Positions 54,003 to 58,532 of a stretch of 64,000 bases of DNA are shown here, in pieces. The stretch spans positions 1 to 64,000 of the forward strand of contig WSNO01000006.1 of the NCBI GenBank assembly GCA_009773415.1. Reading direction: 5' to 3'. Each line of letters opens with the position of its first letter. Within the stretch, counting starts at the first letter, position 1. The position numbers were made by a program, and so were the translations under genes. The notes beneath the pieces were generated by a model, which had not been told where the DNA came from, did not search any database, and saw nothing but the letters and a program-made list of their open reading frames with translations. The DNA comes from Nitrospirota bacterium (GTDB taxonomy: Bacteria; Nitrospirota; Thermodesulfovibrionia; Thermodesulfovibrionales; Dissulfurispiraceae).

Positions 54003-54030
54003 AGGGCTGAGCCTTTTGGCTCAGCCCTTT
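54003..54030 (+). terminator. Bidirectional terminator between the ABC exporter and the cytochrome
   Basis: Eleven-bp perfect stem (54003-54013 with 54018-54028, TTTT loop). T-rich flanks occur on both strands, so it can end both convergent transcripts. Confidence 0.85.
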
Positions 54031-54055: not shown

Positions 54056-55363
54056 TTACTTGCCACCCTTGGCGATGCTCAGCTTCTTGGTGACCTTCTG
54101 CCACATCTGCGAGTTGCCCTCATCCTCTTTTTTGCCGTACGGCAGGTACCAGAGCTCGACCTCAACCGTCACGTCGTTGCTGATGATGGTGCGGGCAAGC
54201 TTGCCGTCCACCTTGCTCTCTTTATACAGCGGAACATAGAAGGTCTCCTTCACTGTTCTGAGCGGCGGCAGACTGGTGTCTTTCAGAAGACCGCTCTTTT
54301 CATACGGTCCTCTTCCCATCTTGTCCCCGCGTCCGAACTGCTGCGGAAGCGGCATATAAATTTTTTCCTGCTGATTGATGATCTTTCCGTCAGGCGTTTT
54401 CGTGGTCACATACAGGACCACCCGGTTCGGCGTGGGTCAGCCGTCCGGAATCGCATGTCCCGCTTTGTTTTTCAGTTCGACAATAACGGTCGCAGCCGGC
54501 GTCGTGGTTGCGATATCGCGCCACTGATAGCCTTCGGCATACACATGCATGTCGACAGCCATTTTTGCCAATTCAGGGGAGCGATAGCTCTGCATGTTGT
54601 GGCCGAGCTTCGACTTCTTCATATGGCAATCCTGGCAGGTTTCACGTTCACCTTCAGGAATGTAGGCAAAGTTGTAAGAACCATACAGGGTTGCACACTG
54701 CGTGGGATTGTCCTGACCGAAGTTCGGTCCCTGACCATGGCACTGACCGCATAAAATCGATTCACCCATGATCTTGCTCTGTTTCATCTTCGGAAAATCG
54801 GGGGTCGGGTGTTCGCCGTTTTTGGAACCATACACCACATTCTTTTCCGGATAGCCGTCAGCCCACTTGTGAACAATGGCATTGCGCTGATGACAGACGA
54901 GACAGTTGATGTTCAGTGACTGAAGTGTCTTTGCCGCAGCGTCGTCAGTCTCCTTGAACGCATACACATTCTTCATAATCTCCTGGGCAACACTGTCCTC
55001 AGCGTCTGCAAGCTGGGGCAGATGGCAATTGGCGCAGACCATAAGATGTTCTATCTTCATGTCTTCCGGCTTCTTAACCCCGGAAAAGGGCCAGTCCTTA
55101 TGCCCATTCTCGACAGTCGTCTTGAATGTTGCTGCAGTGCGGCCGACATCAGCCGGACCGAACATGGAACGTGCATGGAGAGATTGCTCCCACTCTTCAT
55201 AGATTTCCGCATGGCAGTCTTTGCACGAGGTGGAGTCATACATCTTCACGAGTTCAGCGATAGTCTTCGCCTTTTTCACGTTTTTTACGGCCGGACCTGA
55301 CGCAAATGCGGTCAGAGCAAAGCCGACGAGAGCGAAAATCACGCAAATCTTAAAAAACTTCAT
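54056..55363 (-). CDS. Exported pentaheme c-type cytochrome with an in-frame UGA, probable selenocysteine
   Basis: Read through the UGA at 54437-54439, this is one protein of 435 residues. Residues 1-22 are a signal peptide. Five CXXCH haem sites start at Cys47, 110, 154, 205 and 243. The UGA is codon 309, in KNKAGHAIPDG-U-PTPNRVVLYV; the 126 residues after it (LYVTTKTPDGK ... IAKGGK) continue in the same frame to a normal stop with a terminator, and have no start signal of their own (only a GTG without ribosome-binding site). A SECIS-like hairpin lies 16 bases past the UGA. Likely a periplasmic electron carrier or reductase. Alternatives: nonsense mutation or a base error turning Cys (TGC/TGT) into TGA. 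Confidence 0.62.
54401..54422 (-). promoter_or_regulatory. Candidate bacterial SECIS element
   Basis: Minus-strand RNA after the UGA: a six-bp Watson-Crick stem GUGGUC/GACCAC (54416-54421 with 54402-54407), then a C/U mismatch, a U-G pair and an apical GUAU loop. The loop begins with G-U, and its G (54413) is 24 bases past the UGA, within the range of known bacterial SECIS elements (roughly 16-37). The stem is short, so this is suggestive and not proof. Confidence 0.5.
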
Positions 55364-55544: not shown

Positions 55545-55964
55545 CTATTTGGCGTGAAGCGGTCTCATCACGAATGAAGAATCGGCATGCCCGTCTTTCA
55601 TCTTGATAAGCAGCCATTCCTTTCTCTTGCCTTTCATGCAGACAAGGACAAAAGCACCGTTCAGTTTTTTTCCGTGCAGGACAAATTCGATGCGCCCTTC
55701 GATCGGATTGCCTGAGACAAGATCAAAGGGGCCGGTGTCCCAGATGCAGACGGCTCCGGCGCCGTACTGATTTTTGGGAATGACTCCTTCAAACGAAGCG
55801 TAGGAGAGTTCATGGTCATCAACATGAATAGCGAGGCGCTTTTCGGCCGGATTCATGGACGGCCCCTTGGGCACAGCCCACGAAGCCAGAACTCCATCTA
55901 TTTCGAGCCTGAAATCAAAATGAAGCTGGCCGGCATGATGCTCGTGCACAACAAAAACCGGCAT
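55545..55964 (-). CDS. Stand-alone LigD-type 3'-phosphoesterase (PE) domain protein
   Basis: About 139 residues. FVVHEHHAGQLHFDFRLEIDGVLASWAVPKGPS, HVDDHELSYASFEGVIPKNQYGAGAV and GRIEFVLHGKKLNGAFVL are the core of the DNA ligase D phosphoesterase, which trims 3' ends; the metal-binding His/Asp/His residues (HEHH, HFD, HVDDHELSY) are there. No ligase or polymerase domain or ku gene is attached. The ATG at 55964 has no good ribosome-binding site; longer readings overlap the preceding gene. Probably translated by coupling to it. Confidence 0.8.
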   Translation of the reverse strand: MPVFVVHEHHAGQLHFDFRLEIDGVLASWAVPKGPSMNPAEKRLAIHVDDHELSYASFEGVIPKNQYGAGAVCIWDTGPFDLVSGNPIEGRIEFVLHGKKLNGAFVLVCMKGKRKEWLLIKMKDGHADSSFVMRPLHAK

Positions 55965-55986
55965 GGTATGTTTGAGTCCGGAAACG

Positions 55987-56208
55987 TTAGCTGCTTTTTT
56001 TACAGCGGCCGCCGGAAACGGACTTCGAAGCCATTTTGGCGGACATGTAACTTTCGTACATTTCCGCACCATACCCGAGGCAGACCTCACAAAAGCAACG
56101 GGAGACAGCTGACGGCATCCCTTCGCCGGACTGCTCAGCAATGCGAATGGAAAAAAGCTTATTGTCTGCCGATTTTGATGCGCCGCATATTTCACATTTC
56201 TTTTCCAT
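55987..56208 (-). CDS. Small Cys-rich (zinc-ribbon-like) protein of unknown function
   Basis: 73 residues. CEICGASKS at the N terminus and CFCEVCLGYG 35 residues later form two CXXC knuckles, suggesting a zinc ribbon. The C terminus is Lys/Ser-rich. It is upstream of the LigD-type phosphoesterase with a 22-base gap to the chosen start of that gene. Ribosome-binding site is weak. Function unknown; a DNA-repair accessory role is only suggested by the neighbour. Confidence 0.55.
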   Translation of the reverse strand: MEKKCEICGASKSADNKLFSIRIAEQSGEGMPSAVSRCFCEVCLGYGAEMYESYMSAKMASKSVSGGRCKKSS

Positions 56209-56246: not shown

Positions 56247-56903
56247 TCAGGGGTTACTCGCTATGATGCCCTTCTTCATGACTAGAATCTGTTTTGTCAG
56301 TTTTTCCGCCTGATTCCGATCGTGAGTGCTCATTACAATCGTGGTTCGGGTCTGTTTGCCGAGAGACATGATGAACTCTTCAATAAACGCGGTATGCTTC
56401 TCATCGACAGACGCGGTCGGCTCGTCCAGCAGAAGCAGTTCAGGCTCGATTGCAAGCGCACGCGCAATGCCGAGCCGCTGGGCTTCTCCGCTCGACAGTG
56501 TTCGTGCCTCCTGCCGGATCTTGTGTGATAGCCCGACTGAGACAAGTGCTTCTTCAACCCGCTCAACAATCGACGAGGGATCAGCATCGCGAATGCGCAG
56601 TCCGTATGCGATGTTGTCAAACACGGTACCCCTGAATACTGTTGTCTTTGGAAAAACGAGCGTGACGCGACGGCGAAGCACCAAATCCTGATTCAGTTCC
56701 TCATCCCGGTCATAAAACCGGATACTCCCCGCATCGATAGGTTCCAGCATCGCGCATATCCTGAGGAGCGTCGACTTGCCGCTGCCGTTCGGTCCCATGA
56801 CGACCGATGTCGTGCCGGCTTCAAACGTATGCGAAAAAGGTCCGAATACCGGCTCGCCGTCATAATTCCGCATCACCCCGCCCAGCACAAGCGCAAGACT
56901 CAC
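56247..56903 (-). CDS. tupC: Tungstate ABC transporter, ATP-binding subunit
   Basis: 218 residues. Walker A MGPNGSGKSTLLR, signature LSSGEAQRLGIARAL, Walker B LLLLDEPTASVD, and the switch His in VMSTHDRNQAE. Energises tungstate import with TupB and TupA. The GTG start overlaps the tupB stop (GTGA). No C-terminal TOBE-type regulatory domain is present, as usual for TupC. Confidence 0.9.
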   Translation of the reverse strand: MSLALVLGGVMRNYDGEPVFGPFSHTFEAGTTSVVMGPNGSGKSTLLRICAMLEPIDAGSIRFYDRDEELNQDLVLRRRVTLVFPKTTVFRGTVFDNIAYGLRIRDADPSSIVERVEEALVSVGLSHKIRQEARTLSSGEAQRLGIARALAIEPELLLLDEPTASVDEKHTAFIEEFIMSLGKQTRTTIVMSTHDRNQAEKLTKQILVMKKGIIASNP

Positions 56904-57604
56904 AAGTTCCTCCTCATGCCGCGTTGCTGCATAGCAGACAAGACTGCATTAATCATAAGTGAAATACTGAGAAGGATAATGCCGAGTGCAAGCGCCAGTT
57001 CGAAATTTCCCTTGTCGGCCTCCATGGCGATCGTCGTCGTCATCACACGGGTAGCCCCCGCAATATTGCCGCCTACAATGAGTATTGCTCCGACCTCTGC
57101 CGCGAGGCGTCCATAGCCGGCCACCAGGGCGGCGATGATGCCTGTTCCCGCCTCCCGCACAACGACTCGGTCTGCCTGTTGAGGGGTAGCTCCCAGAGTT
57201 AATGCGGTCAGGCGCACCATCGGATCAACGCCGGAAACTGCGGACTGAACCAGTGAAACAATAATCGGAAATGCGAGAATAATCTGGGCGACAACCATTG
57301 CTGTCGGAGTGTACAAGAGTCCCAGTCCTCCGAGCGGACCACTTCGCGAAAGGAAAAGAAAAACAAACAGACCGACAACAACCGGAGGCAGGCCGACGCA
57401 CGTATTCACAATACTCAGCACCAGTCCCCGCAAAGGGAAGCTTCGCAAGCCGATCGCCACTCCGAGTGGAATTGCAGCAAGTGAGGCAATACACAACGCG
57501 CCGAGCGAGACTTCCAGCGAAAGAAGAACTATCGCCAGAAGCTCATTGTCAAGCGCCGTTATTAACTGCAGTGCCTTTGCGAACGCTTCGTATATATATT
57601 CCAT
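56900..57604 (-). CDS. tupB: Tungstate ABC transporter, permease
   Basis: 234 residues, five to six membrane segments, with the EAA-type loop GATPQQADRVVVREAGTGIIAALVAGYGRLAAEVGAILIVGGNI. The sequence matches TupB/WtpB-type oxyanion permeases. An inverted repeat separates it from tupA upstream. Confidence 0.9.
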   Translation of the reverse strand: MEYIYEAFAKALQLITALDNELLAIVLLSLEVSLGALCIASLAAIPLGVAIGLRSFPLRGLVLSIVNTCVGLPPVVVGLFVFLFLSRSGPLGGLGLLYTPTAMVVAQIILAFPIIVSLVQSAVSGVDPMVRLTALTLGATPQQADRVVVREAGTGIIAALVAGYGRLAAEVGAILIVGGNIAGATRVMTTTIAMEADKGNFELALALGIILLSISLMINAVLSAMQQRGMRRNL

Positions 57605-57623
57605 ATCGAAAAAGCAGTGTCCG

Positions 57624-57704
57624 GGATTCAGAATTTCGGGGGAAGGAACAGCAAGCTGACTTCAAAATCTGCCCCCTGTATCCTGAATTCCGGCCTCTGA
57701 ATCC
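57624..57704. repeat. Imperfect inverted repeat between tupA and tupB
   Basis: Arms GGATTCAG (57624-57631) and CTGAATCC (57697-57704), with further partial pairing inside (GGGGG near 57638 with CCCCC near 57672). The stretch shares ATTCCGGC(C/T)TCT with the repeat between ilvC and psd. It sits inside the tup operon and could affect RNA stability or the ratio of TupA to TupBC. Confidence 0.5.
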
Positions 57705-57713
57705 TGCCTGTCC

Positions 57714-58532
57714 CTATTTTTTTGCGTTGGCAATGAAGAGCGCATTGCCGTTTTTGTCCTGAAAGGATGCGATGGCCTGTTGCCCTTCTTTCGAAACAAG
57801 CCAGTTCACAAACTGCATTGCTTCGGCATATTTTACATGCTTGTGCTTTTCCGGATTGACCGCCATTATGCCGTACTGATTGAAAAGCAGCGGGTCGCCC
57901 TCAAAAACAATGCCCATATCGAGTTTGTCCTTGTCTTTCGTTGCAAGCCACGTGCCGCGATCGGTAAGCGTGTACGCCTGTTTTTCATGTGCGATGCGCT
58001 GGGTCTTTTCCATGCCTTGCCCGACCTCAAGATACCACTTCTGGCCTTTCGGATCGACAAAAATTTTCTTCCACAGCTCCAGCTCTTTGGTATGAGTGCC
58101 GGACTTGTCTCCGCGAGAAACAAAAGACAATCCTGATGCAGATATTTTCTTCATTGCCTCGGCGGCAGACCTTGCACCTTTGATTTTCGCCGGATCGTTC
58201 TTCGGTCCGATTATAACGAAATCGTTATACATAACATCGTGCCGGTTGACAAAATATCCTGCCTTGACCGCATCAAGCTCCTGCTCTCTGGCATGCACGA
58301 AGACAACGTCGGCATCGCCGCGCTTGCCGTTCTCAATTGCTGCGCCGGTCCCGCGTGCAACGACCTTTACCTTAATGCCGGTCTTCTTTTCGAATATCGG
58401 AAGAATGGAGCCGAACAAGCCGGAATTCTCGGTACTCGTCGTCGATGCGCAGAGAATCTCTGCCGCAGAAGCAGAAAAGGGCATGACCAATGCACATGCA
58501 AGTGCGATCAGTGTTCTCGTCATCCATATCAT
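57714..58532 (-). CDS. tupA: Tungstate-binding periplasmic protein
   Basis: 272 residues. A signal peptide (TRTLIALACALVMPFSASA) is followed by the oxyanion site signature CASTTSTENSGLFGSILPIFEKKTGIKVKVVARGTG, with TTST as in TupA. Later FVSRGDKSGTHTKELELWKKI and DRGTWLATKDK complete the binding cleft. TupA picks tungstate over molybdate with high affinity. Start at ATG 58532 or at an in-frame ATG nine bases later. Confidence 0.93.
   Translation of the reverse strand: MIWMTRTLIALACALVMPFSASAAEILCASTTSTENSGLFGSILPIFEKKTGIKVKVVARGTGAAIENGKRGDADVVFVHAREQELDAVKAGYFVNRHDVMYNDFVIIGPKNDPAKIKGARSAAEAMKKISASGLSFVSRGDKSGTHTKELELWKKIFVDPKGQKWYLEVGQGMEKTQRIAHEKQAYTLTDRGTWLATKDKDKLDMGIVFEGDPLLFNQYGIMAVNPEKHKHVKYAEAMQFVNWLVSKEGQQAIASFQDKNGNALFIANAKK

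Follow-up and report, generated by a model that had tools for sequence, protein, structure and literature searches.

The window, i.e. the whole 64,000-nucleotide stretch of DNA analysed here, carries on its minus strand an open reading frame for a pentaheme c-type cytochrome, which starts with ATG at 55363 and is interrupted by an in-frame TGA at codon 309. Past this TGA, 126 further codons follow in the same frame up to a TAA stop, beyond which lies a terminator; a signal peptide is present as judged by eye. This layout of 54056-55363, with its five CXXCH sites, had been described in an initial annotation of the sequence, and all details were found to be correct on re-reading. The features of the locus are as follows.

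54056-55363, minus strand: extKL / mccSep coding sequence with the UGA read through, 435 residues (NF040886, PDB 9WT8, AlphaFold2)
55211-55225, minus strand: heme c site 1, CKDCH, residues 47-51 (motif read directly)
55022-55036, minus strand: heme c site 2, CANCH, residues 110-114 (motif read directly)
54890-54904, minus strand: heme c site 3, CLVCH, residues 154-158 (motif read directly)
54737-54751, minus strand: heme c site 4, CGQCH, residues 205-209 (motif read directly)
54695-54697, minus strand: Cys223, not part of any heme motif, conserved in all of the near-full-length family sequences aligned (72 of 72)
54623-54637, minus strand: heme c site 5, CQDCH, residues 243-247 (motif read directly)
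54440-54460, minus strand: GHAIPDG codons directly before Sec, with invariant His303 (alignment)
54437-54439, minus strand: Sec codon UGA, residue 309, in the motif GHAIPDG-U-PTPNR (reading frame, homologue alignment)
54402-54421 (stem about 54403-54420), minus strand: SECIS-type apical hairpin GUGGUCCUGUAUGUGACCAC, loop about 22 nt past the UGA
54003-54028, minus strand: intrinsic (rho-independent) terminator, which separates the cytochrome gene from a convergent ABC transporter operon

The gene stands alone, with the convergent ABC-2 transporter operon on one side and a gene for a LigD-type phosphoesterase on the other. The extHIJKLMNOPQS cluster was absent around it, the neighbors being ABC transporters and a LigD_N protein. 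The upstream gene (55545-56195, minus strand) encodes a stand-alone LigD 3'-phosphoesterase-domain protein, and a similar ORF is found upstream in the closest named relative, L021 (labelled Nitrospiraceae, 92% identity). Also upstream lies an operon for an ABC transporter (56247-58532, minus strand), which includes a solute-binding protein of the PBP_like_2 kind. From reading its binding protein this transporter is possibly of the tungstate (TupA) type, Pfam giving only PBP_like_2; such a transporter would fit an anaerobe using Mo, W and Se, and it proves nothing.

The read-through product was matched to the family model NF040886, "multiheme c-type cytochrome (seleno)protein ExtKL" (E 2.4e-175, residues 4-430), with a score of 583 bits against a curated cut-off of 250 bits and with model positions 5-422 of 423 covered. 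The characters of ExtKL were all found, namely five CXXCH sites, a signal peptide, and Sec or Cys after GHxxPDG (UGA at 309 in the window gene, U or C in homologues). In a sequence search the product also matched the PDB chains of "Multiheme cytochrome c selenoprotein (MccSep)" 9WT8/9WT9 (E 1.6e-164, residues 28-435), where residue 309 was aligned to X in the wild-type chain and, in the mutant U325A, to Ala. For Se in the purified protein this X is indirect evidence. MccSep (PDB 9WT8, 9WT9, 9WTA, 9WTB, 9WTC) comes from another organism, but is homologous over 28-435 including the Sec position. A literature search for MccSep returned nothing relevant.

The Geobacter gene was put forward in 2007 as a novel selenoprotein family on the basis of its in-frame TGA and conservation (PMC1914089), ExtKL was again described as a selenoprotein later (PMC5877670; PMC6148476), and it is named in a 2026 review on prokaryotic selenoproteins (PMC13188914). 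The Sec-containing multiheme cytochromes of metal-reducing bacteria, which the initial annotation had mentioned as proposed, are these Geobacter ExtKL proteins, together with NF040886 and MccSep. The window gene resembles Geobacter sulfurreducens ExtKL (GSU2937-GSU2936) in having five hemes and an in-frame UGA, in its additional C-terminal domain and in matching the model over the full length; however, the Geobacter gene lies inside extHIJKLMNOPQS (PMC5877670), whereas the window gene is alone. Location in the ext cluster is usual in Geobacteraceae and is not defining for ExtKL. The family model, the match to MccSep in the PDB and the 2007 proposal together indicate that the finding is real and known. 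The gene is therefore almost certainly a Nitrospirota orthologue of extKL (mccSep) and encodes a selenoprotein cytochrome. The family itself is already known (proposed in 2007, with a curated model and solved structures), and only the setting differs here: a Nitrospirota host and no ext operon around the gene.

If the UGA is read as Sec, homologues should carry UGA or Cys at the same place, and Cys in a GHxIPDGC-like motif had indeed been expected at residue 309. The column was UGA in 71 of the 77 aligned rows (window included); of the remaining six, two were natural Cys genes, a third was the window row, in which Sec had been entered as C, and three ended short of the column. Sixteen of the TGA-free copies scoring above the family cut-off in a phylum survey were fetched and all had Cys, and the Cys homologues carry the motif GHxIPDGC. 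Family members thus have either Sec or Cys at this position. Further in-frame TGAs in some homologues were mostly the ordinary stop at the gene end. The natural Cys forms of ExtKL (L042, L060, L099-L113 and L116) offer a natural comparison set of Sec versus Cys. Since selA is retained in most of the genomes holding Cys copies, the Cys forms do not simply result from loss of the pathway. More distant proteins have other residues there, His in an aligned distant Nitrospirota paralogue, whose relatives are in genomes where a selA search found nothing, and Ala in cytochrome c552. One divergent pentaheme protein below the family cut-off, L124 (G219:C86), has PHNVPDG-U, and its type could possibly be a separate Sec-containing subfamily.

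It has also been suggested, in older Geobacter annotations, that there are two genes, extK for a short pentaheme cytochrome and extL for a small protein. A GTG-started ORF does lie past the UGA (54056-54421), but it begins inside a domain and has no signal peptide, and the Cys homologues are one continuous ORF and the solved PDB protein a single chain, so that the two-gene reading is refuted and the initial view that the part after the UGA is no independent gene is upheld.

The hairpin downstream, which had been reported as lying about 16 bases past the UGA with GU at the top of its loop, proved to be of SECIS type. It starts 15-16 nt past the UGA and has seven pairs, one bulged U and the apical loop UGUAU, which contains G-U. 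The folding energy is -8.1 kcal/mol; when the peptide was recoded synonymously, only 2% of the recodings reached this value. The bacterial SECIS model quoted in PMC13188914 has G in the first two loop bases, a loop 16-37 nt after the UGA, a stem of 4-16 bp and an MFE of -7.5 kcal/mol or lower, and the hairpin of the window gene agrees with all of these. Rfam gave no SECIS match at the site; its lone weak match there, to a microRNA model, was set aside as chance.

Selection on the RNA itself was visible in the synonymous choice of codons among 69 distinct sequences. Codon identity was 0.88-1.0 at codons 315-320 against 0.23-0.5 expected, and near background in the rest of the gene, with no comparable block. 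The hairpin made up of codons 315-320 reads GGUC-CUG(U/G)A(U/A)GU-GACC. Six pairs were formed in 97.9% of cells in the 64 Sec sequences versus 53% in the 11 Cys sequences, and the mean folding energy rose from -6.3 kcal/mol in the former to -1.4 in the latter; the conserved hairpin is lost in these 11 Cys homologues, which were the ones tested at the hairpin region. In the homologue L074 the common register is broken and an equivalent hairpin can fold in a shifted register. Both the UGA and the hairpin are retained in homologues down to about 30% identity, and therefore neither is due to chance. Computationally, these results strongly support a functional SECIS at codons 315-320. No comparable SECIS analysis of the ExtKL family was found in the accessible portions of the cited literature.

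The window sequence is from a single draft assembly, and the TGA at codon 309 might accordingly be taken for a sequencing error or a true nonsense mutation in a pseudogene; this reading is refuted by the same UGA in independent genomes, across the phylum Nitrospirota and beyond, by conservation after the UGA like that before it, and by the RNA-level selection on the hairpin, and it has practically no chance of being right.

In the Sec pathway, SelD makes selenophosphate, SelA turns Ser-tRNA(Sec) into Sec-tRNA(Sec), and SelB binds the hairpin and delivers the charged tRNA. A search for selA, selB, selC and selD elsewhere in the genome had been proposed as a check, and all four were found in the organism's own genome (2.46 Mb, estimated 100% complete), selC being a tRNA-Sec with the anticodon UCA. 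In selD (L008, C59:99593-100507) a TGA lies in frame within the motif GUAAK (AGUAAK) of the active site, so the product of selD, selenophosphate synthetase, is probably itself a second selenoprotein in this genome. About 45 genomes with Sec-UGA copies were tested, and selA was present in nearly all; the exceptions were three draft genomes, one without it (G041) and two with fragments only (G033, G274). No evidence against Sec insertion was found. The original proposal of a probable selenoprotein is supported by the NF040886 and MccSep matches, the sel genes, the Sec/Cys exchange and the conserved hairpin.

In the AlphaFold2 model of the protein (mean pLDDT 73.7, moderate) the heme part is helical and the C-terminal part rich in beta structure; confidence is low around Sec and in the stretch from heme site 4 to heme site 5. 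The best fold match of the model was the penta-heme cytochrome c552 of Thermochromatium tepidum (PDB 5ZE8, Foldseek E 1.6e-13), in a ranking over a set without MccSep entries, which were matched by sequence search only. The sequence match to c552 is weak, and c552 is no selenoprotein, its Ala standing in PHAMPTGAP. For the small pentaheme cytochromes (sPHC) of cable bacteria, structural homology to ExtKL is reported in PMC11976967, which gives a layout of two genes for one of them and makes no mention of Sec.

Based on these data, Sec is almost certainly inserted at UGA-309 from SelD selenophosphate, with charging by SelA and with SelB acting on the hairpin 15-16 nt downstream, and the protein is exported and receives five hemes c. 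Sec sits where the C-terminal Ig-like domain begins or close to it, shortly after an invariant His, and in some lineages Cys can take its place. The heme chain may pass electrons to Sec, which may be redox-active or act as a nucleophile and so reduce a small substrate, an oxyanion or a chalcogen compound. In Geobacter, ExtKL has been tied to selenite reduction on preliminary data (PMC5877670). Because the window gene stands alone, outside extHIJKLMNOPQS, no substrate or partner for a catalytic role is evident at its locus.

Sec might instead be inserted as a heme axial ligand or an electron-transfer tuner. It is six residues past the invariant His303, in a motif that other pentaheme cytochromes share, and may therefore be close to a heme; moreover, cable-bacteria pentaheme cytochromes of the ExtKL type were assigned at least one open heme site (PMC11976967). 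However, Ala in c552 and His in the distant paralogue at the Sec place imply that the pentaheme fold works without Se, and the model is too uncertain around Sec for distances (pLDDT <50, model residues 285-288). We hold this non-catalytic role to be rather improbable. A selenenylsulfide between Sec309 and Cys223 was also considered, as Cys223 is invariant (with His63 and His303, one of the three invariant residues outside the heme motifs in the family alignment); yet c552 keeps the aligned Cys with Ala at the Sec position, and the structure model is unreliable in that region. A more far-reaching and unlikely idea is that in the stand-alone Nitrospirota form Sec adjoins or ligates a heme, which would make the protein a dedicated terminal reductase with a new substrate in an ext-independent pathway.

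For the selenoprotein cytochrome itself, plain gene calling cuts the gene off at codon 309, and its correct reading therefore matters for the annotation of Nitrospirota genomes. The distribution of Sec and Cys and the frozen SECIS codons show long-term selection on selenium in a heme protein, so that the role of selenium beside five hemes is testable through the natural Sec and Cys forms.
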